From assembly GCA_903845195.1 (NCBI GenBank), contig CAIMWO010000018.1, positions 35,174-99,173 of the forward strand: DNA of 64,000 nucleotides, written 5' to 3'. Shown here piece after piece: positions 4,301 to 51,191 of this stretch. The stretch is from an uncultured Phycisphaerales bacterium (GTDB lineage Bacteria; Planctomycetota; Phycisphaerae; WQYP01). Numbering within the stretch: the stretch's first letter is position 1; every line of letters starts with the position of its first letter. A model generated the notes under the pieces. That model was not told the DNA's origin. It made no database searches and saw nothing but the letters and a program-made list of their open reading frames with translations. The position numbers and the translations under genes are program-made.

Positions 4301-5011
4301 AAGCTGGTCGTATTCCTGCATGACGTAGGAGGAGCGGAGTTCGCGCAGGCGGGTGGAGTATTCCTGGAAGCTGCGGGCGCGGCCGGCCTGAACTTTCACG
4401 GAACGCAGCTGGCGTTCGACTTCATCGAGCACGAGCTGGGACTGGGCGAGGTTTTGATCGGTGCGTTCGAGTTTGCGGAGAGCTTCTTTTTTGCGCTGCT
4501 TGAAGCGGGAGATACCGGCGGCTTCTTCGAAGATCTCGCGGCGGTCCTGCGAGTTGGCGTCGAGGAATGCGGCGACGCGGCCCTGTTCGATGAGGGAGTA
4601 GGCATCGACGCCGACGCCGGTGTCGAGGAACATTTCGCGGATGTCCTTGAGGCGGGCGATCTGGTTGTTGATGAGGTATTCGCTGGTGGCGTCGCGATAG
4701 AGGCGGCGGGTGACTTTGACGACATCGGCATCGAGGGGGAGTTTGCGGTCGTCGTTGGTGAAGGTAAGGGAGACTTCGGCCATGCCCATGGGTTTGCGGG
4801 TGCCGGAGCCGTTGAAGATAACGTCGAGCATGGCATCGCCGCGGAGGGATTTGGCGGACATTTCGCCGAGGACCCATTTGACGGCGTCGACGACGTTGGA
4901 TTTGCCGCAGCCGTTGGGTCCGACGATGCCGGTGATGCCGTCATCGAAGACGAATTCGGTGTAATCGGCGAAGGATTTGAAGCCGGAGAGTTCGAGGCGG
5001 GCGAGTTTCAA
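1352..5011 (-). CDS. smc: Chromosome segregation ATPase SMC
   Basis: SMC forms the two-armed ATPase of the bacterial condensin that organises and segregates DNA. The head has Walker A GPNGCGKSN near residue 36, the ABC signature LSGGEKTMTAVALV near 1112 and Walker B FCILDEVDAALDE near 1135. Long heptad-rich coiled coils flank a hinge at roughly 530-720. Length (about 1220 aa) is normal. The frame opens five codons further upstream with ATG, but GGAGG sits 8 nt before a TTG that gives the usual SMC N-terminus (KLARLELSGFKSFAD), so TTG is preferred. Oddity: the hinge contains the inserted peptide NSEFRIQNSEF, encoded by a tandem heptamer array. scpA and scpB are not in the window. Large plus-strand ORFs over this gene are shadows. 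Confidence 0.97.
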   Translation of the reverse strand: MKLARLELSGFKSFADYTEFVFDDGITGIVGPNGCGKSNVVDAVKWVLGEMSAKSLRGDAMLDVIFNGSGTRKPMGMAEVSLTFTNDDRKLPLDADVVKVTRRLYRDATSEYLINNQIARLKDIREMFLDTGVGVDAYSLIEQGRVAAFLDANSQDRREIFEEAAGISRFKQRKKEALRKLERTDQNLAQSQLVLDEVERQLRSVKVQAGRARSFQEYSTRLRELRSSYVMQEYDQLHRKEVALSEQLNDVVDSLAAVRRDLEGKRTRQAELQLELESAQESARKAERELLSAQNDRQSAQQRGDFARQQIQQLTEQRELLNHRQAELGERLAARQADVARHEEALAAIDQKLREHEAQVAQAVQTQEAASKAIAGLNRSVDEHKSKAIDLMRQIARLHTDINSFKITRENLANQKTRLEQRKAVIDQQIAELKAKVAEHEARKNQLTEQSTLLQAQANEIREQQKATSQKMAAISQELARERELRSGLKSRQNVLNDLQAKREGVSQVVREILKQRDAATGSGGAATAAFSYVKGIVADAVSTDLENASLIEAALGDLANAVIVDNSQALLADREIWQKLAGRVTVLATDKLLAYQTAGIDNSEFRIQNSEFAISAIDLVKCDPQHALLLHQLLGHTFIVESLAAALELADAAPRGHRFVTRAGEVVEAVGGLSSSIVLGDISRKSGGMITRRAESAKLDRDLAAIEIRVNDLTTQIAACDQTSRELDARQQELRSQIYLTDSARAEASAQFQQAGSQLQRTSSEAPLLAGEMESIDRQSASAAERQTEAEGKVAVLETEQKKVEALVHELGAQLIVRQHEVSELAEAATAARVAMGQVQEQRSGLSRELATARVSANQAQMELDRLAGEVETVEERVGDAKTTVDQTATLLAQVAQVITAAEAQLAQHTDRVTTLRSEFTTVTSGIDSVQEQIEAQARREHELSLQKNELSVRIETLIEHTIDELQINLHETYANYQAQETDWDAVAAEINELKGKISRLGNVNIDAISEQSTLEERHASLTAALADIHDAKQQLEELIGKINEDSRIRFAESFAAVRNEFQDMFRRLFGGGKADLILEDPDDILESGIEIMARPPGKEPQSMSLLSGGEKTMTAVALVMSIFKSKPSPFCILDEVDAALDEANTARFASIIQDFTHFSQFIVITHNKRSMGVANVLYGVTMQEQGCSKRVAVRFDERGPAAIHAPGAPKQETVAAA
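3173..3207. repeat. Heptamer array, GAATTCT family, in frame inside the smc hinge
   Basis: Five tandem units GAATTCT, GAATTTT, GAATTCT, GAATTCT, GAATTG lie within the smc reading frame. On the minus strand they encode NSEFRIQNSEF, between two hinge segments that otherwise look conserved (LATDKLLAYQTAG and AIDLVKCDPQHALLL). The array is strikingly AT-rich compared with the surrounding codons, so it looks inserted rather than diverged. Confidence 0.9.
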
Positions 5012-5383
5012 GAGATCGACCTCCATGTCGAACGAGAGGGGATGGCCGGGGGCGATAACATTGGAGCCCCGCGGGTACCACTACCATCCGTGGTTGGGGG
5101 GTAGGATACCATACTTGATGTGGGGGGGACAATGAAAAAGGGGGGGTAAAAGGGGGTGAGAGCGCAAAAAGTGCGGGGGAGTCCGATAAGTGGGGATTGG
5201 GAGGGTGGAATGTGGCATTTTTACGCTCGGGGCCAAATCACGTAGGTGCAGCGGGAAGTTTCGGGACGGGAATGAGGAGATGTGTTGGTCACGAGGCTAT
5301 TGCGGGCAATCGACAAAGAGGAGGCAAGAGTGGAGGGGATTCGAGAGAGCGCTTTGGGGCACCTTCCCTTTATTTTCCAATTG
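5012..5383. other. Intergenic region with G-run cluster, upstream of smc
   Basis: No credible gene was found. The plus strand carries several G tracts within about 65 bases: two runs of seven and two of five, separated by A-rich spacers, starting near the smc start. The smc promoter should lie here. The ORFs of about 100 aa listed in this stretch have no ribosome binding site or recognisable content. Confidence 0.5.
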
Positions 5384-6292
5384 TCACTTCTTCTGCAACA
5401 TCGCGAACATGTGGTCATGTGCTGAAATCCAGTGTGGAACTTGGTCGCTCCATGCGCTTGGAAACAAAGGCAGATGACTTGCCACGGCGTAGCGAGCATT
5501 TTTGATCCAATCTTTTAAATGCCGTGCCACTCCCGACCGCAAGTGAGGTCTGCGTTCATAATGGACAACCTTCAAACCGCATTTGTTTCCGACCCATTCC
5601 ACTGATCTCCGATTCAAGAAGCTGATGTGTCCAATGTAGCTGCAGTACCAGTAGTGTGACCCATAGATACGCCATGTACGGGCATCCGTGTCACCGGTTA
5701 CGCAAAGCAGTACACCTCCGGGTTTCAGCAAACTCGCAGCCCGTTCGAAAAATTCCCGAGGCGCAGGAAGATGCTCCACAACATCCACTGCAATTATGCC
5801 GTCAAACGAATGCTTTTCCGGATCCAATGAGTCAATCGTTGGGCCAAGGATTTCTATCCCCTTGGTTCGAGACACTTCCGCTGCCATTACCGAAGGTTCC
5901 ACACCGTAGTGCTTCCATCGGGTTCCAAAATGTCTGAGCAATTCCCCGTTGAAGCAACCCACGTCCAGAATTGCATTTCCCAAAATCCGTGAGCAGAGCA
6001 ACTGCTCCATATAATCGAATTGTCGTTCCCTTCCGTCCTCAACGGCAGACCAGTGATCGGCAGGCGATTGGGAATAACCTCGCAACAATAATTCCTGATC
6101 CAGCGGTGGAGCTTTCCAAGTGAACCCACATTCCTCGCAGGCACGCAACTGGAAAATCACTCCATCGGGATTAATGTTCACGCCCCCCACTTCCTCGGGC
6201 TGAAAATGCCGGATGTTCCCTTTGGTTTTCCAGTTTTCTTTCATACATAGCGGGCATTGGTTGCCATCGTTCAGGTTCGTCTGAATCGTCAT
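5384..6292 (-). CDS. Class I SAM-dependent methyltransferase with N-terminal zinc-binding motif
   Basis: The N-terminus has two paired cysteines, CPLC near residue 14 and CEEC near 53, as in methyltransferases that carry a small zinc ribbon. The Rossmann methyltransferase core follows: motif I ILDVGCFNGELLRHFG near 108, an acidic residue in YGVEPS, then FDGIIAVDVVEHLPAPREF and LLKPGGVLLC. This layout is typical of Methyltransf_11/23 proteins in surface sugar or lipid modification clusters. The target cannot be read from sequence. An AAGGG ribosome binding site precedes the ATG. Two GT2 glycosyltransferases lie next to it, which supports a role in extracellular glycan synthesis (inference). 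Base composition is lower in GC than the housekeeping genes, consistent with a variable surface locus. Confidence 0.85.
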   Translation of the reverse strand: MTIQTNLNDGNQCPLCMKENWKTKGNIRHFQPEEVGGVNINPDGVIFQLRACEECGFTWKAPPLDQELLLRGYSQSPADHWSAVEDGRERQFDYMEQLLCSRILGNAILDVGCFNGELLRHFGTRWKHYGVEPSVMAAEVSRTKGIEILGPTIDSLDPEKHSFDGIIAVDVVEHLPAPREFFERAASLLKPGGVLLCVTGDTDARTWRIYGSHYWYCSYIGHISFLNRRSVEWVGNKCGLKVVHYERRPHLRSGVARHLKDWIKNARYAVASHLPLFPSAWSDQVPHWISAHDHMFAMLQKK

Positions 6293-6347
6293 AAATCCCT
6301 TTCAGACTACAACGCCTTGCAGTCACAGTGAAATATGCGAGGAATCG

Positions 6348-7262
6348 TCATTGCATGCGCGAACCCTTAAGTCGTTCGCGAATCGCCAGAATCGGAAATG
6401 CAGCCAAGTATCGAAATCGAAGTAGAGCTAGATTCCATCCAAACGTACGCCGAAATAAACGCCAAGCCCACTTCGATTCCTTATGATTCAGACATCCGAT
6501 CGACACCGGGCGGATATGCATGGTGATAAGCGACCAGCGTGCCTTTCGGCGCGCCTTTCCTCCGGGATATTTGCCCTGTCCCTCTGAATCTATCAGGTAC
6601 ATTCCACCTTCCACATTTTTCATTGAGTACGCAGAGATGTTTCCTGCGTGCTCCCGCCGGGCACAGCATACGGGTCGATCAATCCGCACAAACCCAGGAG
6701 CATCAGAGACGCGCAGCCACGCATCGTTCTCCTCGTGCGTGAACCGATGAATAAAAAAGCCCCCGGCCTTCTGCAGGATCTCCCGTTTTACGGCAAGTGA
6801 ACTGGGGGTCAACCATGCCGGCTCCCGCCATGAGGCCAGGTAGTCCGCGTAATAGCGATCGCGTAACGGGGCGGGCTGAATCTCCTGAACCGTGTCGGCA
6901 TTCGTAAAACTCTGTATCGCTCCGAGCACCAGGGACGGGTGTTTGTGCTTCGCGATTGCTTCCGCCATACGCTCCAGAGCCCACGGCAACCACAGATCGT
7001 CGCTGTCCAGAAAGATGACGTATTCTCCGGCCGCCGCGGCCATGGCGTTATTGCGGGCCGCGCCGAGGCCCTGATTATTCTGGCGCAACAACCGGACGCG
7101 ATCCTTGTATCTGGCGAGGACTTCGGGGGTACGATCGGTAGAACCGTCATCGATGACGATAATCTCCTGATCCTTGAAGGTCTGGTTCAACACCGACTCG
7201 ATCGTTTCCACAACCAAATCGGGCCGGTTATAGACTGGGATGATCGTCGAGAATAACGGCAT
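6348..7262 (-). CDS. GT-A glycosyltransferase family 2
   Basis: This transfers a sugar from a nucleotide donor and probably acts in glycan assembly at the cytoplasmic side of the membrane. The N-terminus STIIPVYNRPDLVVETIESVLNQT and IIVIDDGSTDRTPEVL are the nucleotide-binding part of GT2. EYVIFLDSDDLW holds the metal-binding DxD. The C-terminal half is variable and has no clear membrane segment. The frame opens five codons earlier with TTG, but the ATG giving MPLFSTIIPVYN fits the family start and follows GGTGG. It lies 55 bases downstream of the methyltransferase start on the same strand, and diverges from a second GT2. Acceptor and donor specificity are unknown. Confidence 0.9.
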   Translation of the reverse strand: MPLFSTIIPVYNRPDLVVETIESVLNQTFKDQEIIVIDDGSTDRTPEVLARYKDRVRLLRQNNQGLGAARNNAMAAAAGEYVIFLDSDDLWLPWALERMAEAIAKHKHPSLVLGAIQSFTNADTVQEIQPAPLRDRYYADYLASWREPAWLTPSSLAVKREILQKAGGFFIHRFTHEENDAWLRVSDAPGFVRIDRPVCCARREHAGNISAYSMKNVEGGMYLIDSEGQGKYPGGKARRKARWSLITMHIRPVSIGCLNHKESKWAWRLFRRTFGWNLALLRFRYLAAFPILAIRERLKGSRMQ

Positions 7263-44656: not shown

Positions 44657-45403
44657 TCATCCATCCACCAGCGGAATCTCCACCCGGAAATTCGTCCCCT
44701 GCCCCGGTTCGCTGGTCACTGCAATATGGCCGCCGTGCTCCTCGATGATACGCCGCGTCGTGGGCAATCCCAATCCGGTGCCGCCCTTTTTCGTCGTAAA
44801 GTAGGCATCAAAAATCCGCGGCAGATTTTCCGCCGGAATGCCCATGCCCGTGTCGGAGATATACAAAATCGCCTGCCCCTTGGAAGCGAGCGATCGGATC
44901 AGCAGTTCACCGCCCTTGGGCATCGCCTGGATCGCATTGAGCAGCAGATTCAACAACGCCTGCTTGAACAGATTCACATCGAGCCGGCAACGCGGGCCTT
45001 CGGCGGAAAGAGATGTAAGAATCCGCACCTTGTGGGCCTGCGCCTGCGGGTGCAGAAAATCGACCAGCTCTTCCACGATCGCGTTGACCCCCACCTCTTC
45101 CGTCCGCAATTCGATGCGTCCGGCAAACCGCAGAAAATCATCCAGCGTCTGCCGCAGCCGATCCGCTTCCTTCTTCAGCGTCGTCAGACGCGTCTTGGAG
45201 CGTTCTACCCCCGGCACATCTGCCAAATCCTCTTCCAGCAGTTGCAGATTCAGCTTTAGCGTTGAGAGGGGGTTCTTCAGTTCATGCGCCAAGCCCGCAG
45301 CCAGTTTGCCCATGTCGGCAAGCTGGTTGAGACGCGCGATGCGCTCGCTCTCCCGCCGCATCCGGCGCGGGCGTTTGTCTTCCTGTGGTTCGGTCATAGT
45401 CAT
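44657..45403 (-). CDS. Soluble sensor histidine kinase without sensor domain (NtrB-like)
   Basis: An orphan kinase of about 248 residues. DHp helix with phospho-His in MGKLAAGLAHELKNPLSTLKLNLQLL near residue 38, then the HATPase domain with N box LLNLLLNAIQAM, G1 YISDTGMGIPAENLPRIFDAYFTTKKGGTGLGLPTTRRIIEEHGG. Only about 25 basic residues precede the DHp helix, so there is no PAS, GAF or membrane input domain. No response regulator gene is nearby. It sits 61 bases upstream of rsmB, so the two may share a transcript. Input would have to come from a partner protein. Confidence 0.93.
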   Translation of the reverse strand: MTMTEPQEDKRPRRMRRESERIARLNQLADMGKLAAGLAHELKNPLSTLKLNLQLLEEDLADVPGVERSKTRLTTLKKEADRLRQTLDDFLRFAGRIELRTEEVGVNAIVEELVDFLHPQAQAHKVRILTSLSAEGPRCRLDVNLFKQALLNLLLNAIQAMPKGGELLIRSLASKGQAILYISDTGMGIPAENLPRIFDAYFTTKKGGTGLGLPTTRRIIEEHGGHIAVTSEPGQGTNFRVEIPLVDG

Positions 45404-45479: not shown

Positions 45480-47678
45480 TTACGCGTGAACCAGCAGGGA
45501 AATATCCTCCGGCAGATTATCCGCCACCGCGCTGATCACATCGCCTCGCAAGGCGCGAATCACCGCACCCTGTCGCGATACACCCATCATCACCGCCTCA
45601 ACGCCGTAGGTCGCGGCAAAGTCCAGAATCGTGTATGCGACATCCGGCGCGACCGCGTAGATAGGAATCATTGATACGCCGTGTTTCGCGCAGACATCGG
45701 CCGCCATCTTCAGCGCGGCAAGAGCGTCCTTGTCTTCTTCGATCTTTGGCGCTTGGACGGCGCCCGTCATCGTCACGTTCAACTGGCGCACAAACAGCAC
45801 GAACGCCACGGCTCCGGTCTTGTGACAGTAGTTCGCCGCAAATTCGATCAGCTTGGCGGCCCCGCGGGTGGCGATCAGCACATGGGGGCGATTGAGATCC
45901 AATCCTCCCGCACCTTCCGCCGTCGGCAGCCGCACCGGCGCCCCAGCACCTGCACCGACCGGCACCAGGCCAGTTTCCACCGGCATCTTCCCGCGGAGAT
46001 AACGAAACGCCGTCGAGGCGCTTGATCCTGCTGAAAGCAGCAATACGGCGCCGATGGCCAGCAATGCGAAGAGCCCTTGCGTAGGCGTATGGATCACCGG
46101 CAGGTTGGCCGCCAGAATTTCCGCCAGCGCATCATGGAACTGCGCAGCAAGACCCGCGCATAGCAACAGCACGCAGGTCGCACCGCTCAGGGCAATGCCC
46201 CGGCCGCGCGGCGCCAATAGCGGATAGGTCTTGGTGCTGAACCGCATCAACAGACCACCGACCAGCACCGATCCCGCAAAGAGCAACGCGTGCGGCTTCT
46301 GATACGCCAGCGTGCCCTCAATCGCCAGCATGACCACCGCCAGAATGCCCATGCCCACGCGTTCGTAAGTCTTCAGGGGCATCGTGCGATTGGCCGTGCA
46401 CGAGCCCAAGTTGATGGCAATCGCACCCACCACGCCGATCGCATACAGATCCGCGAGTTTTTCCAGGTCCGTGATAAAGCACAAAATCAGAATGGGCAGC
46501 ACGATCGCGGGTATCAAGGCGTACCACGGCACGCCGAAGATGTTGAGCTTCGTAAAGAACTTCGGCAATTCCGTATCGCGCGACATCACGTACTGGATGG
46601 AAATCATGTCCGCAACCGCTGTATTCACCGCGGAAAGCAGTAACAGTCCAAACACGCCGCCCGAAAGAATCGCGAACCAATGCCCGATGAATTTTTCGCC
46701 CATGAAGCGAAGGATGGCGTTTTTTGCGCGATCCTCATCCGGTGTCAGTTCCGGCAGGGCCTTGACCTTAGCTGCGGCCTCGTCGACCTGAGCCGCCAAG
46801 GCCGAATTTTCCTTCCACTTGGCATCCACCTGCTCCACTTTCTTCGTGACCGCTGCAAGTTCCTCTCGGGCTTGCGCGATCTTCTCGTCCTTCACATACG
46901 GTGCGGAATTCGCCGTGCGGCCGTGTCCGATGTCCACCCCCGGCAGCGACGGCAGGGCGTTCATCGCGATAGCAAAGATGATGTTGAAAATCACCACTTC
47001 CAGCAGCACCGGCCAGATCGCCTTGTTGGCCGTCTTCGTCACCGGCGGCACCATGATGCCCGTCATGTTGGCGATGGCCTCCACGCCCGAGAGCGCCAGC
47101 ACCACGTTCACCAGCATCAGCCACTGATGCCCCATCGATTCGGTCGGGCGATGAATGGCGCTCCAGCCGGCGCGAAGATGCGGTATCGAAAAGAAAAACA
47201 GGACCAAGGTCAGCAACAGCGTCGCCAATGCCACAATCAGCGCAAACGTGCCGGCCTTCTTCGGGCCGACGAAATTGATCACGCCGACAAGCAGAATGGC
47301 ACCGATGGCGCAAATTGGCACCAGATTGTCCGGCACGCCGAAGTAGTGCATGCCATCGAGTGCCGAAAGAGAGGCCGTCACGATGTAATCCGCAAACAGG
47401 AGCAGCGCCCCGATTACCGCGAGCGTGCGCGAGGTGTGCTTGGCCGCGGAATAGACGCCGCCGCCATCGGGATAGCACCGGCAGATGATCGTGTAAGCCC
47501 ACCCTACCGCCGCCACCAACGCGCATACGCCCAGCACGTAATAAAACGACGCGTGCAGTGCGTAGTAGAACGCCAACCCCAGCACATAAAAACGCGAAGT
47601 GCCCCAGTCGCCATACAACATGGGACCGGCGTGGTACCACTTCAATTCGCGCGGACGTTCCGAGTGGGTAACGAGCAT
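45480..47678 (-). CDS. KimA-like APC-family permease with C-terminal UspA-like domain
   Basis: A 12-TM amino acid/polyamine/cation superfamily transporter (YYALHASFYYVLGVCALVAAVGW, PDGGGVYSAAKHTSRTLAVIGALLLFADYIVTASLSALDG, INFVGPKKAGTFA, LALSGVEAIANMTGIMVPP). The ydaO riboswitch upstream makes a KimA-type K+ importer the best match, since kimA is the former ydaO. Two oddities: a charged coiled coil of about 50 residues (EKIAQAREELAAVTKKVEQVDAKWKENSALAAQ) in a loop near 270-330, and a C-terminal cytosolic UspA-like domain (about 600-732) ending AVADNLPEDISLLVHA. Amino acid transport is the alternative. No strong ribosome binding site is visible at the ATG. The gene is monocistronic. Confidence 0.88.
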   Translation of the reverse strand: MLVTHSERPRELKWYHAGPMLYGDWGTSRFYVLGLAFYYALHASFYYVLGVCALVAAVGWAYTIICRCYPDGGGVYSAAKHTSRTLAVIGALLLFADYIVTASLSALDGMHYFGVPDNLVPICAIGAILLVGVINFVGPKKAGTFALIVALATLLLTLVLFFFSIPHLRAGWSAIHRPTESMGHQWLMLVNVVLALSGVEAIANMTGIMVPPVTKTANKAIWPVLLEVVIFNIIFAIAMNALPSLPGVDIGHGRTANSAPYVKDEKIAQAREELAAVTKKVEQVDAKWKENSALAAQVDEAAAKVKALPELTPDEDRAKNAILRFMGEKFIGHWFAILSGGVFGLLLLSAVNTAVADMISIQYVMSRDTELPKFFTKLNIFGVPWYALIPAIVLPILILCFITDLEKLADLYAIGVVGAIAINLGSCTANRTMPLKTYERVGMGILAVVMLAIEGTLAYQKPHALLFAGSVLVGGLLMRFSTKTYPLLAPRGRGIALSGATCVLLLCAGLAAQFHDALAEILAANLPVIHTPTQGLFALLAIGAVLLLSAGSSASTAFRYLRGKMPVETGLVPVGAGAGAPVRLPTAEGAGGLDLNRPHVLIATRGAAKLIEFAANYCHKTGAVAFVLFVRQLNVTMTGAVQAPKIEEDKDALAALKMAADVCAKHGVSMIPIYAVAPDVAYTILDFAATYGVEAVMMGVSRQGAVIRALRGDVISAVADNLPEDISLLVHA

Positions 47679-47794
47679 AAACGTACTGAAGACCCGTGGC
47701 GCTCTTCACAAAACATGAACGAACTCATCGCGGGCCGATCCGCCAGGTTCGGCTCGCCACTCGTCTCATGTTTTGGAGGAAGCGTTTAGGCCTT

Positions 47795-47968
47795 CACTCC
47801 AGCGTTCGCCTGCGAGGTTAGCTGACGGGCTCGGATGCGCTGTTCTCCGTCTGCGTTTACCGCAGATTAGCCCCTGCGCGGCCAGTCTTTCGACCGGCTT
47901 TGCGTTTTTCCGCCGCTACACGCAACGGATTGGTTTCCCCGCTGCCGGGCTTTGCGCCCGGCATTCGG
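47795..47968 (-). promoter_or_regulatory. Cyclic di-AMP riboswitch (ydaO/yuaA motif)
   Basis: On the minus strand the leader carries the diagnostic blocks in order: TGCCGAATGCCGGG, CAGCGGGGAAACCAAT, GGGGCTAATC, GGAGAAC, and the near-invariant CCCGTCAGCTAACCTCGCAGGCG. These match the ydaO consensus that binds two c-di-AMP molecules and normally turns expression off. It lies about 115 bases upstream of the KimA-like permease and is its only downstream gene. The expression platform (a terminator or a blocked ribosome binding site) is not clear; pairing of ACATGAGACGA-type sequence further down is possible. Boundaries are approximate. Confidence 0.93.
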
Positions 47969-48066
47969 CACTTCTCAGCGAATGCAGTGATAAAGGCTAA
48001 CAATCGAGGCCGAAATGTCAAAAGGATATTTAAACGCAAATACGTATGTTGTTATGGAGAATAGGC

Positions 48067-49260
48067 TTACAATTCCAAGAGTAGCCCTTCTGCCATCAGC
48101 CCTGGCCCAAACCCGATGGCCGCACATGGGCGATGACCGCCCTCTTTAGCCTCTTGTTCATCTCCAGATTTGCGGTTTTGGAGAAGCCGATTCAGCAGGA
48201 ACAGCAGCGTGGCCGACGACATGTTCCCATGCTGTGCCAATATCTGGCGCGATGCGCGCAGGTCGGGTTCTCCGATTCCCAATGCTTCCCCCGCTGCCGC
48301 GAGAATCTTCGGCCCGCCAGGGTGGATTGCCCAATAGCGCACATCCGACAATGCTAGCCCTTCCTTGGCCAGCCATGATTCACACCATGACCGTAAATGC
48401 CGGCCAATCAACGCGGGCAATTCCGCTGACAACGTCATTTCAAAACCATGATCACCGATGCGCCACGTCATGGCATCGCGGCTGTCGGGCAACAGCAGGC
48501 TGGCCGTTTCGATCAAACGCCAACCGCGCGGCACGTCACCATGAACCTTTTGGTTTTCATCGTTTTCCGCACCAACCACGCATGCCGAAGCGCCATCCGC
48601 AAATAGCGCATTGGCCACCAGCTTTTCGGGATTCCACCCGTACGCAAAATGCAGCGTGCTCAACTCGACACAGCACACGAGCACCCGCGCGCTGGGATCG
48701 GCCGTTACCGCATCCTTGGCCGCGCCGAGCGCATTGAACGCGGCGTGACATCCCATGAAGCCAATATGCACGCGCCGCACATCGGGACGTAAATCAAGCC
48801 GGCCGGTCAGTTCCACATCCAGTCCTGGCGCATAGAAACCGGTGCAGGAAACGGTGATCAGATGCGTGATACGCCGTGGCGCGACGCCGGACGCCTCAAG
48901 TGCTGCGCGTGCGGCCCGCTCGGCCAGCACCGGTGCTTCTGCCGCATAGCGTGTCATGCGTATCGCCGTTGTGGGGCCACGCAATCCCGCCTCCGCCGGC
49001 GGACCGTAGAACGCCCGCAGGTCCGCCAGTCCCTCGCCGGTATTAATCACCGACCCGCGTTGCTCCACTCCGCTGTGCGAAAACACGCGGCGTAGCCAGG
49101 CACGCTGGCCATCCGACTGGCAACTGAATTCCTCGGATACCGCTGCCGCATCCAACTGGCTGAGCGTCGGCGGCGAGGCCGTGCCGATGCCCAGAAGGCT
49201 GACGGATCGCCGCAGCGGCGTCGCATCGCGAACGATCGTTTCACCCAGCAAGTCCGTCAT
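48067..49260 (-). CDS. Type III polyketide synthase
   Basis: A homodimeric chalcone-synthase-like enzyme that extends an acyl starter with malonyl-CoA. The catalytic triad is intact: Cys in HIGFMGCHAAFNALGAAKDA, His in YWAIHPGGPKILAAAGEALG and Asn in ILAQHGNMSSATLLFLL. GFGPGLMAEGLLLEL at the end is typical. Length about 397 aa. The ATG giving MTDLLGETIV follows GGAG; the track adds 11 residues. It is the third gene of a compact operon (methyltransferase, FAD oxidoreductase, PKS), the same set as in Streptomyces srsABC, so alkylresorcinol, alkylpyrone or a related phenolic lipid is the probable product (inference). Confidence 0.93.
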   Translation of the reverse strand: MTDLLGETIVRDATPLRRSVSLLGIGTASPPTLSQLDAAAVSEEFSCQSDGQRAWLRRVFSHSGVEQRGSVINTGEGLADLRAFYGPPAEAGLRGPTTAIRMTRYAAEAPVLAERAARAALEASGVAPRRITHLITVSCTGFYAPGLDVELTGRLDLRPDVRRVHIGFMGCHAAFNALGAAKDAVTADPSARVLVCCVELSTLHFAYGWNPEKLVANALFADGASACVVGAENDENQKVHGDVPRGWRLIETASLLLPDSRDAMTWRIGDHGFEMTLSAELPALIGRHLRSWCESWLAKEGLALSDVRYWAIHPGGPKILAAAGEALGIGEPDLRASRQILAQHGNMSSATLLFLLNRLLQNRKSGDEQEAKEGGHRPCAAIGFGPGLMAEGLLLEL

Positions 49261-49285
49261 GAGTCCACTCCTCTGAGGCCGCCGA

Positions 49286-50437
49286 TCACGCACTGATCTG
49301 CCGCGCCATGATCTCCGATGCCCACGGCACGTGCCGCGTCACGCGGACGCACGCCGCGGCCAAAGCCGGCCTGTGCAATATGCCGCGCAATCCTCGGCAC
49401 CAGCGTTGCCTTCGCACGATCTCCAACGAATGGATCGCGCCCCAGCGATCCGCCAGATCGCCGGGCCAGGTTTCCGCTTGATTCGGCAACAGCTTCACCA
49501 CTTCACGGGCGCTCCGAATGGCCCAGGAAATTCCTTCGCCCGTGAACGGCTCGACGTAGCCGCACGCATCGCCGACGGCCAATACGCGATGCCCCCCTAC
49601 CGCCCGGCGCCGCCGGGTGAGCGGACCGGTGCCGATGAATTTCGCTTTCTCCAACGACTGCCATTCATTCAAACCACATTCCGCCAGAATCTCGCGTACC
49701 ACCGCCGCCGGGCAACCGTGTCTCGCATGGCAAGCGGCAGGATCGAGAGACGCCCCCACGTGGAAATGTCCGTCGGAAAGCCGCACCAGTCCCACGTATC
49801 CGTTCGTGCCGACGTACATGCCAATCGTTCCGGCGGGCAACGTACCGGCATGCTCCACCGTGGCCGCGAAACCGAGCCGTATCGGCTGATCCTGTTCGAA
49901 TCGCGCCCACGACTCATTCGCCAGCGAGGTTCCACCCAATCCATCGCACGCCAACACCACGCGTGCCTGCACCTCGACGCTTGTGCCGCCGGATTTCAAA
50001 CGCACGGTTCGCAATTCGCCGCTGGTTGCCGGTACCAACTGTGCGGCCACTGCGTCAACAAACACGCATCCGCGGCTTGTGGCCAGCCGCACCAGCAGTT
50101 CATCCAATTGCCGCCGTTCTATGGCGATGCCCTGCGGCAATGCGATCGTCGTCCCACATTTTCCGACGTGCAGAGCCATGCGGGTCAAGACGATTCCGCC
50201 ATCCAACACTTCACCGAGCCCCATCGACAGCAGCATGGCTGTCGCCGCGGCGTTCACGCAGCCGCCGCAGGCTTTGTCGCGCGGCCAATGCGATTTTTCC
50301 ACCAGCAATACTTGCCATCCTTGCGCCGCCAGCAATGCCGCCGATACGCTTCCTGCCGGGCCGGCGCCGACAATCACGGCATCCCACGTTTGCCGGGAAA
50401 TATCCGCCAGATTTCTTCTGACTGCAGGTTCAGTCAC
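49286..50437 (-). CDS. FAD-dependent oxidoreductase (geranylgeranyl reductase/monooxygenase type)
   Basis: The dinucleotide-binding start DAVIVGAGPAGSVSAALLAAQGWQVLLVEKSHWPRDKACGG and GHRVLAVGDACGYVEPFTGEGISWAIRSAREV are the two classical FAD-contact regions. Cys-rich CGGC near the first site is shared with the tetraether/geranylgeranyl reductase group. In the operon it may hydroxylate or reduce the polyketide, matching the flavoprotein SrsC role. A GTG with GGGGGAGGG six bases upstream overlaps the end of the methyltransferase gene by eight bases, which argues for coupled translation; the track start is six codons earlier. Confidence 0.9.
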   Translation of the reverse strand: MTEPAVRRNLADISRQTWDAVIVGAGPAGSVSAALLAAQGWQVLLVEKSHWPRDKACGGCVNAAATAMLLSMGLGEVLDGGIVLTRMALHVGKCGTTIALPQGIAIERRQLDELLVRLATSRGCVFVDAVAAQLVPATSGELRTVRLKSGGTSVEVQARVVLACDGLGGTSLANESWARFEQDQPIRLGFAATVEHAGTLPAGTIGMYVGTNGYVGLVRLSDGHFHVGASLDPAACHARHGCPAAVVREILAECGLNEWQSLEKAKFIGTGPLTRRRRAVGGHRVLAVGDACGYVEPFTGEGISWAIRSAREVVKLLPNQAETWPGDLADRWGAIHSLEIVRRQRWCRGLRGILHRPALAAACVRVTRHVPWASEIMARQISA

Positions 50438-51191
50438 GACGGCCCTCCCCCTCAACTGGGCCGCGTCGTTGCCAGACCAGCAGCATGCGCCAGGGCCAGC
50501 AGGCGGTCACGCGCAACTCCGACTCATCCGTTGTCGCGTGCATCCCCGCTTCCCGCGCCATTTCCGCCAATTCCGTTTTCGTCCAGGCGGCGCGGACGCT
50601 GGCCGTCCCGTCGTGATGCACGATCGCGCTGCGGCTCAGCACGCGGCAACCGGCCCAGGCAAGCGCCCAGCCCATCGCGGATCGCCGCAGGTCGCTGATC
50701 ACAATCATTCGCTGTGCCCGCTGGCGCATGTGTGCCAGCGTCTCGATCACTTCCGGCCGCTGCAAATGATGCATGAAGAGGCTGCACGTGATGGCATCGA
50801 ATTGGCCCGGCGGCAATCCGTCAGGTGCGGATCCTTGCGTCGTGCGGGCGCGCACGCCGGCTTGCTTGGCCGCCTTGGCCGCCAGTTCCAGCGCGGTCGG
50901 GCTCCGATCCATCAAACTCAGTTCGACATGGAGGCCTTGAGCCTGCAACAATTTCGCAACCGCCACCGGCACATCCCCCCCGCCGCAGGCGACATCCAGC
51001 AATGTCAGATTCTTGAGCCCGCAGTCGCGCGCCATTTCCGCCAGCGGCTGCGCGATAATCCGGGCGGCGTGCGAGGCGCGGTTGATTCGCTGCAGCCCGG
51101 CCAGTGCCGCGCCGTGCAGCGATTCATCCAATCCCGGTTCGTCCATCAATTCCGGAATGACGTGGCGCTGGCGTAGAGCTGAAAATAGCAT
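50430..51191 (-). CDS. Class I SAM-dependent methyltransferase of the PKS operon
   Basis: The SAM-binding motif LTLLDVACGGGDVPVAVAKLL is near residue 62, followed by VELSLMDRSPTALELAAKAA, and FDAITCSLFMHHLQRPEVIETLAHM further on. Function probably O- or C-methylation of the polyketide-derived ring or its precursor. This is inferred from the operon: methyltransferase, FAD enzyme and type III PKS overlap or lie within about 25 bases of each other. The N-terminal 50 residues (RQRHVIPELMDEPGLDESLHGAALAGLQRINRAS) are typical of this planctomycete group as far as I recall. No membrane segment. Confidence 0.88.
   Translation of the reverse strand: MLFSALRQRHVIPELMDEPGLDESLHGAALAGLQRINRASHAARIIAQPLAEMARDCGLKNLTLLDVACGGGDVPVAVAKLLQAQGLHVELSLMDRSPTALELAAKAAKQAGVRARTTQGSAPDGLPPGQFDAITCSLFMHHLQRPEVIETLAHMRQRAQRMIVISDLRRSAMGWALAWAGCRVLSRSAIVHHDGTASVRAAWTKTELAEMAREAGMHATTDESELRVTACWPWRMLLVWQRRGPVEGEGRRD

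Follow-up and report, generated by a model that had tools for sequence, protein, structure and literature searches.

We consider it highly probable that, in this uncultured Phycisphaerales bacterium, a c-di-AMP riboswitch leads the gene for a proton-coupled K+ importer that is KimA-like and belongs to a clade distinct from KimA; c-di-AMP at high K+ would then be expected to shut off importer synthesis. The window (the whole 64,000-nucleotide stretch of DNA that was analysed) comes from contig 18 in an assembly of 4.62 Mb that is 94% complete, and its Rfam content is a single match, to RF00379 (cmscan). The permease open reading frame extends from an ATG at 47678 (reverse strand) to 45480 and encodes 732 amino acids; its start, MLVTHSERPREL, has the same form in close relatives, and 113 nt separate the aptamer 3' end from the ATG. 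A first-pass annotation of the sequence had placed the unit at 45480-47968, which captured the gene and leader correctly but stopped 12 nt short of the aptamer 5' end at 47980. The unit and its aptamer comprise:

45480..47678, reverse strand: KUP-superfamily KimA-like permease with universal-stress-protein (USP) tail, 732 aa (Pfam, profile, fold and residue evidence)
47792..47980, reverse strand: c-di-AMP riboswitch aptamer, RF00379 (cmscan, covariation)
47838..47842, reverse strand: pseudoknot arm 1, CAGCG (covaries with arm 2 across 32 aptamers)
47800..47804, reverse strand: pseudoknot arm 2, CGCTG (covaries with arm 1 across 32 aptamers)

Judged from its sequence, the leader is a genuine c-di-AMP riboswitch aptamer with conserved structure and predicted ligand binding. 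The ydaO-motif leader read by the first-pass annotation, which quoted CCCGTCAGCTAACCTCGCAGGCG (a stretch inside the aptamer) and proposed an Rfam search as a check, was recovered by that search well above the gathering score (58.6 bits versus 38, E = 5.2e-11) and over the full length of the model (positions 1-134). Among 32 homologous aptamers from the phylum, RNAalifold recovered the main helices, with compensatory change on both sides in 11 of 21 pairs. The pairing between loop and 3' tail, CAGCG/CGCTG in the window, is made elsewhere by other sequences (CTCTTC/GAAGAG or CCTGAA/TTCAGG), and its matched score on alignment columns was 16.4, compared with 11.6 ± 0.53 when loops and tails were permuted among sequences (maximum 13.5 in 5000 permutations; the statistic ignores relatedness). 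The riboswitch is unevenly distributed close to home: in four genera belonging to the family of the window genome, none was found upstream of the permease orthologues even when thresholds were relaxed, and rescanning of the relatives without an RF00379 match at E ≤ 5 found no hidden aptamer, so the gene works there without it. Either there have been repeated losses or gains of the riboswitch, or those four genera use other control.

Relationship of the permease to KimA emerged at the level of profiles and folds. A single-sequence phmmer search of the permease against the PDB found nothing, so a profile was needed to reach KimA; with a profile of 24 relatives, KimA (6s3k) came top at E = 3e-16, far before all others. 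In Foldseek searches with an AF2 model (mean pLDDT 76.6), c-di-AMP-bound KimA (8b71 and 8b70) ranked first with low TM-scores (0.39-0.55), and in both profile and fold matches amino-acid permeases of the APC fold came next. These matches bear out the earlier description of the protein as KimA-like, while overall sequence similarity to KimA is low. The Pfam matches were AA_permease_2 (residues 39-241) and Usp (residues 605-723; 9.1e-7); the window protein had no match in NCBIfam or PHROG, and K_trans (Pfam PF02705) matched neither the window protein nor its relatives nor anything else in the genome.

The residues of the predicted K+/H+ path are strongly conserved. Six positions invariant among 18 diverse homologues (D24, Y31, T101, S105, E200 and Y412) map to KimA residues tested by mutation (PMC6994465), with the K+ and H+ site residues D36, Y43, T121, E233 and Y377 of KimA corresponding to window D24, Y31, T101, E200 and Y412 (numbering checked against the 6s3k alignments and PMC6994465); N204 is likewise invariant, and conservation is 90% or higher at D97, Y98 and S197. 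Nine of the ten K+/H+-path residues compared with KimA (6s3k, 8b70, 8b71) are identical, the tenth being S197 in place of T230. The first transmembrane (TM) helix carries the following motif, in which G, D, T, S and Y are invariant among the 18 homologues:

47586..47612, reverse strand: TM1 motif GDWGTSRFY (residues 23-31), with a predicted K+ site at D24 and Y31 (spacing equal to that of KimA D36/Y43)

Across the clade, TM1 reads [LF][YF]GDWGTS, near the VFGD/IYGD motif of Kup, which is absent from KimA (PMC6994465); the corresponding stretch is VYGDIGTSPLY in a canonical Kup from this class, and the pattern YGDxGTSxxY is common to the window permease and to a riboswitch-controlled Kup of that class (L095). 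Kup differs from the window permease, however, in its C-terminal domain, and profile similarity between the two is confined to TM1-5 (E = 4.4e-6). A Kup-like TM1 together with a KimA match and no K_trans match places the protein in the KUP superfamily as KimA-like, neither KimA proper nor Kup, and it is likely, on these sequence grounds, to be a proton-coupled K+ importer of a clade distinct from KimA. Canonical KimA-like proteins of Planctomycetota (alignment A2) are likewise preceded by riboswitches and belong to the same superfamily, but match KimA at E = 2.9e-87, retain a pocket motif of the HN[ED][TS] type and lack any match to Pfam Usp.

The protein also departs from KimA in architecture. 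KimA has 12 TM helices, with TM12 running straight into its cytosolic domain, whereas 14 are predicted for the window permease (from hydropathy, charge distribution and the AF2 model). Three elements stand out:

46683..46952, reverse strand: charged insert in the TM7-TM8 loop, predicted helical, residues 243-332 (charge, model, alignment)
45987..46211, reverse strand: TM13-14, two additional TM helices, residues 490-564 (hydropathy and model)
45483..45890, reverse strand: C-terminal USP domain, residues 597-732 (Pfam Usp, 9.1e-7; Foldseek)

The insert is real, lies in a loop and is predicted to be helical, as had been proposed, but comprises approximately 85-90 residues rather than 50 (with 14 K+R and 15 D+E in residues 243-329). 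The positive-inside rule puts it on the outer face, and it measures approximately 55-65 residues in most close relatives and approximately 20-30, or is nearly absent, in other families and classes, riboswitch-controlled homologues included. The comparison thus identifies the insert as a lineage-specific elaboration, and does not support it as a functional hallmark. One class-level homologue (L043, G038:C43, 2518-4866) has an insert of more than 100 residues in the predicted outer TM3-TM4 loop and almost none between TM7 and TM8. The added helices, at approximately residues 490-513 and 532-564, come after TM12 and before the USP domain and had been overlooked; they are absent from the genome's paralogue (L049; 12 TM by alignment) and from homologues in other classes. 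The UspA-like tail was recognised correctly: its own model (pLDDT 84.9) matches USP structures in Foldseek (best E = 2e-7), among them the A. fulgidus USP with dAMP, TeaD, a USP that binds cAMP and the c-di-AMP-bound USP of KdpD, and as modelled it is a genuine USP fold, whereas the KimA cytosolic domain has been described as PPAT-like.

This tail raises the question of whether c-di-AMP, besides acting on the leader, also controls the permease itself by way of the USP domain, as in KimA, which is inhibited via its cytosolic domain (PMC10284832). Such double control is conceivable, though we lean against it. Besides the nucleotide-bound USPs and the c-di-AMP-bound KdpD USP among the fold matches, Y118 and N237 of KimA are retained as Y98 and N204, and several c-di-AMP contacts in KimA are made by backbone atoms, so that side chains may vary. 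Against it, the KimA pocket side chains H579 and R337 are replaced by R711 and K373, with R711-G-D-V714 aligning to H579-N580-Q581-S582 and K373 at a variable position; TM12 is followed by the two added TM helices before the tail begins; the c-di-AMP motif of KdpD, SXS-X20-FTAXY (PMC4686210), was not found in the window permease; and the USP ATP motif G-2X-G-9X-G(S/T) is degenerate in the tail (G699-2X-R702-9X-G712-D713). On sequence comparison, the tail may put the transporter under direct nucleotide control. Somewhat more doubtful is the fuller proposal that the permease represents an undescribed KUP-superfamily branch, with a TM1 motif like that of Kup, a membrane domain like that of KimA and a bona fide USP domain, in which c-di-AMP would act both on the leader and, via a non-KimA USP pocket, on the transporter.

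Control through the leader requires an output, and two further elements flank the aptamer:

47994..48021, reverse strand: promoter-like site, TTGACA (48021-48016), 16 nt, TAGCCT (47999-47994) (predicted from relatives' leaders)
47685..47797, reverse strand: candidate expression platform, a long hairpin ending approximately 7 nt before the ATG, with no U-run (predicted fold; role inferred)

A strict consensus scan of the leader for promoters gave none. The TTGACA precedes the aptamer by 41 nt, and seven of eight close-relative leaders have TTGAC 35-46 nt upstream of theirs, with TAnnnT 16-18 nt further on; TTGAC occurred within 80 nt upstream in 18 of 28 leaders, compared with 1.8 expected (maximum 7) in shuffles. 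Because these elements recur at similar distances in relatives, transcription probably starts just before the aptamer. The platform hairpin has a predicted folding energy of -54.9 kcal/mol (z = -3.5), and the output is most likely a block of translation by this hairpin just before the start codon, a reading favoured because a terminator scan of the leader found no intrinsic terminator with a U-run, and because the platforms between aptamer and ATG in two relatives, just 34-35 nt long and lacking a U-run, fit translational control better than termination. Those same observations count against transcription termination at the long hairpin 3' of the aptamer, which we regard as unlikely even though the hairpin is accompanied by a short T stretch (CATGTTTTG) and the kdp c-di-AMP riboswitch of Bacillus terminates transcription (PMC6488665).

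What the permease carries was addressed through its distribution and that of the riboswitch. In the class sample, the permease was present in 28 genomes and TrkH in 15, with both in none and neither in 4 (Fisher P = 5e-9; statistic and counts ignore shared ancestry), and a swap was apparent within one genus (permease in G027 and G132, TrkH in G036 and G208); beyond the class, five genomes carry both genes. The mutual exclusion of permease and TrkH within the class gives good support to K+ uptake. Across a sample of 392 Planctomycetota, 46 genomes contained the riboswitch, and 36 of the 41 riboswitches examined precede TrkH, KimA-like or Kup genes, so the riboswitch serves mainly K+-importer control in the phylum. 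By Pfam, the 41 downstream proteins included 20 TrkH, 14 AA_permease_2 and 1 Kup, and by reading 15 were KimA-like (11 canonical and 4 window-type), with the caveat that coding frames were picked by a simple composition rule, so individual assignments may be wrong. Riboswitches before TrkH, Kup and kdp genes belong to the same aptamer family and apparently follow the same regulon logic, while the transporter families differ (PMC6488665). The K+/H+ residues, the exclusion of TrkH within the class and the K+ importers behind the phylum's other riboswitches together back the function first proposed for the permease. They also make it very improbable that the permease carries amino acids or some other osmolyte and that the riboswitch serves osmolyte control, a view that draws on Pfam's name for the permease (AA_permease_2), on the APC-fold amino-acid permeases next after KimA in the profile and fold matches, and on osmolyte uptake also being under c-di-AMP control in other bacteria.

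Several riboswitches in the survey had other contexts. One precedes an SPFH/Band 7 gene (L065) and another the gene for a protein 51% identical to it (L092); the rest lie before genes for a HAMP sensor (L090) and for a protein of aminoacyl-tRNA editing (L047) and before other open reading frames (L048, L101), none of them K+ importers. Six riboswitch-controlled TrkH-like proteins (L073-L076, L079 and L089; two of the six were scanned singly) have an N-terminal extension of approximately 180-210 residues before the TrkH match.

The genome contains one membrane-type CdaA-like cyclase (DAC domain, E = 3.4e-36), as a search proposed in the first-pass annotation revealed, and one PgpH-like 7TM-HD phosphodiesterase, and its gene content provides good support for predicting that the host can make and degrade c-di-AMP. 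KdpA is present; TrkH and Kup were not found in the genome. A second riboswitch-permease unit (L049, G000:C33:14000-28000, 4664-6924) lies behind the PNPase gene. In another genome, an entire riboswitch-permease unit is duplicated in tandem (L046, G009:C179, 1873-6468). In the scheme that we propose, high K+ would lead the CdaA-like cyclase to raise c-di-AMP, which would bind the leader and switch importer synthesis off; at low K+, c-di-AMP would fall and the importer would be made. Both the OFF direction and the rise of c-di-AMP with K+ are inferred by analogy with Bacillus (PMC10284832, PMC6488665).

The closest known arrangement is the ydaO riboswitch-kimA pair of Bacillus subtilis, which shares the aptamer family before a KimA-type K+ importer and, in the genome, a cyclase and a 7TM-HD phosphodiesterase. 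The window genome differs in belonging to another phylum, in having two riboswitch-permease units and in showing no U-run terminator; its permease belongs to a different clade, has a Kup-like TM1 motif, ends in a USP domain and carries both the insert between TM7 and TM8 and a further pair of TM helices.

Genes on either side of the unit were also inspected. Just upstream, a type III polyketide synthase (chalcone-synthase-like), an FAD-dependent oxidoreductase and a methyltransferase lie end to end (48067-51191, reverse strand), likely forming a small biosynthetic cluster. A soluble histidine kinase, with no membrane segment in its annotated part, lies 76 nt downstream of the permease (44657-45403, reverse strand); it was rejected as an operon partner, as a motif search did not find it next to the permease in relatives.

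Most work on the control of K+ by c-di-AMP concerns Firmicutes and Actinobacteria. Planctomycetes are not among the six phyla named as having predicted links between the riboswitch and K+ transporters (PMC6488665), and our literature search found no paper linking c-di-AMP riboswitches to Planctomycetota. Together, these results extend a regulatory scheme described in Bacillus to a little-studied group in another phylum, where the transporter is of unusual construction; in Planctomycetota as a whole, three families of K+ importer stand behind the riboswitch, and in one class one such family takes the place of another. It is now testable whether c-di-AMP control is what has been conserved in K+ homeostasis, more than any single transporter, and whether nucleotides gate a KUP importer with a USP tail.
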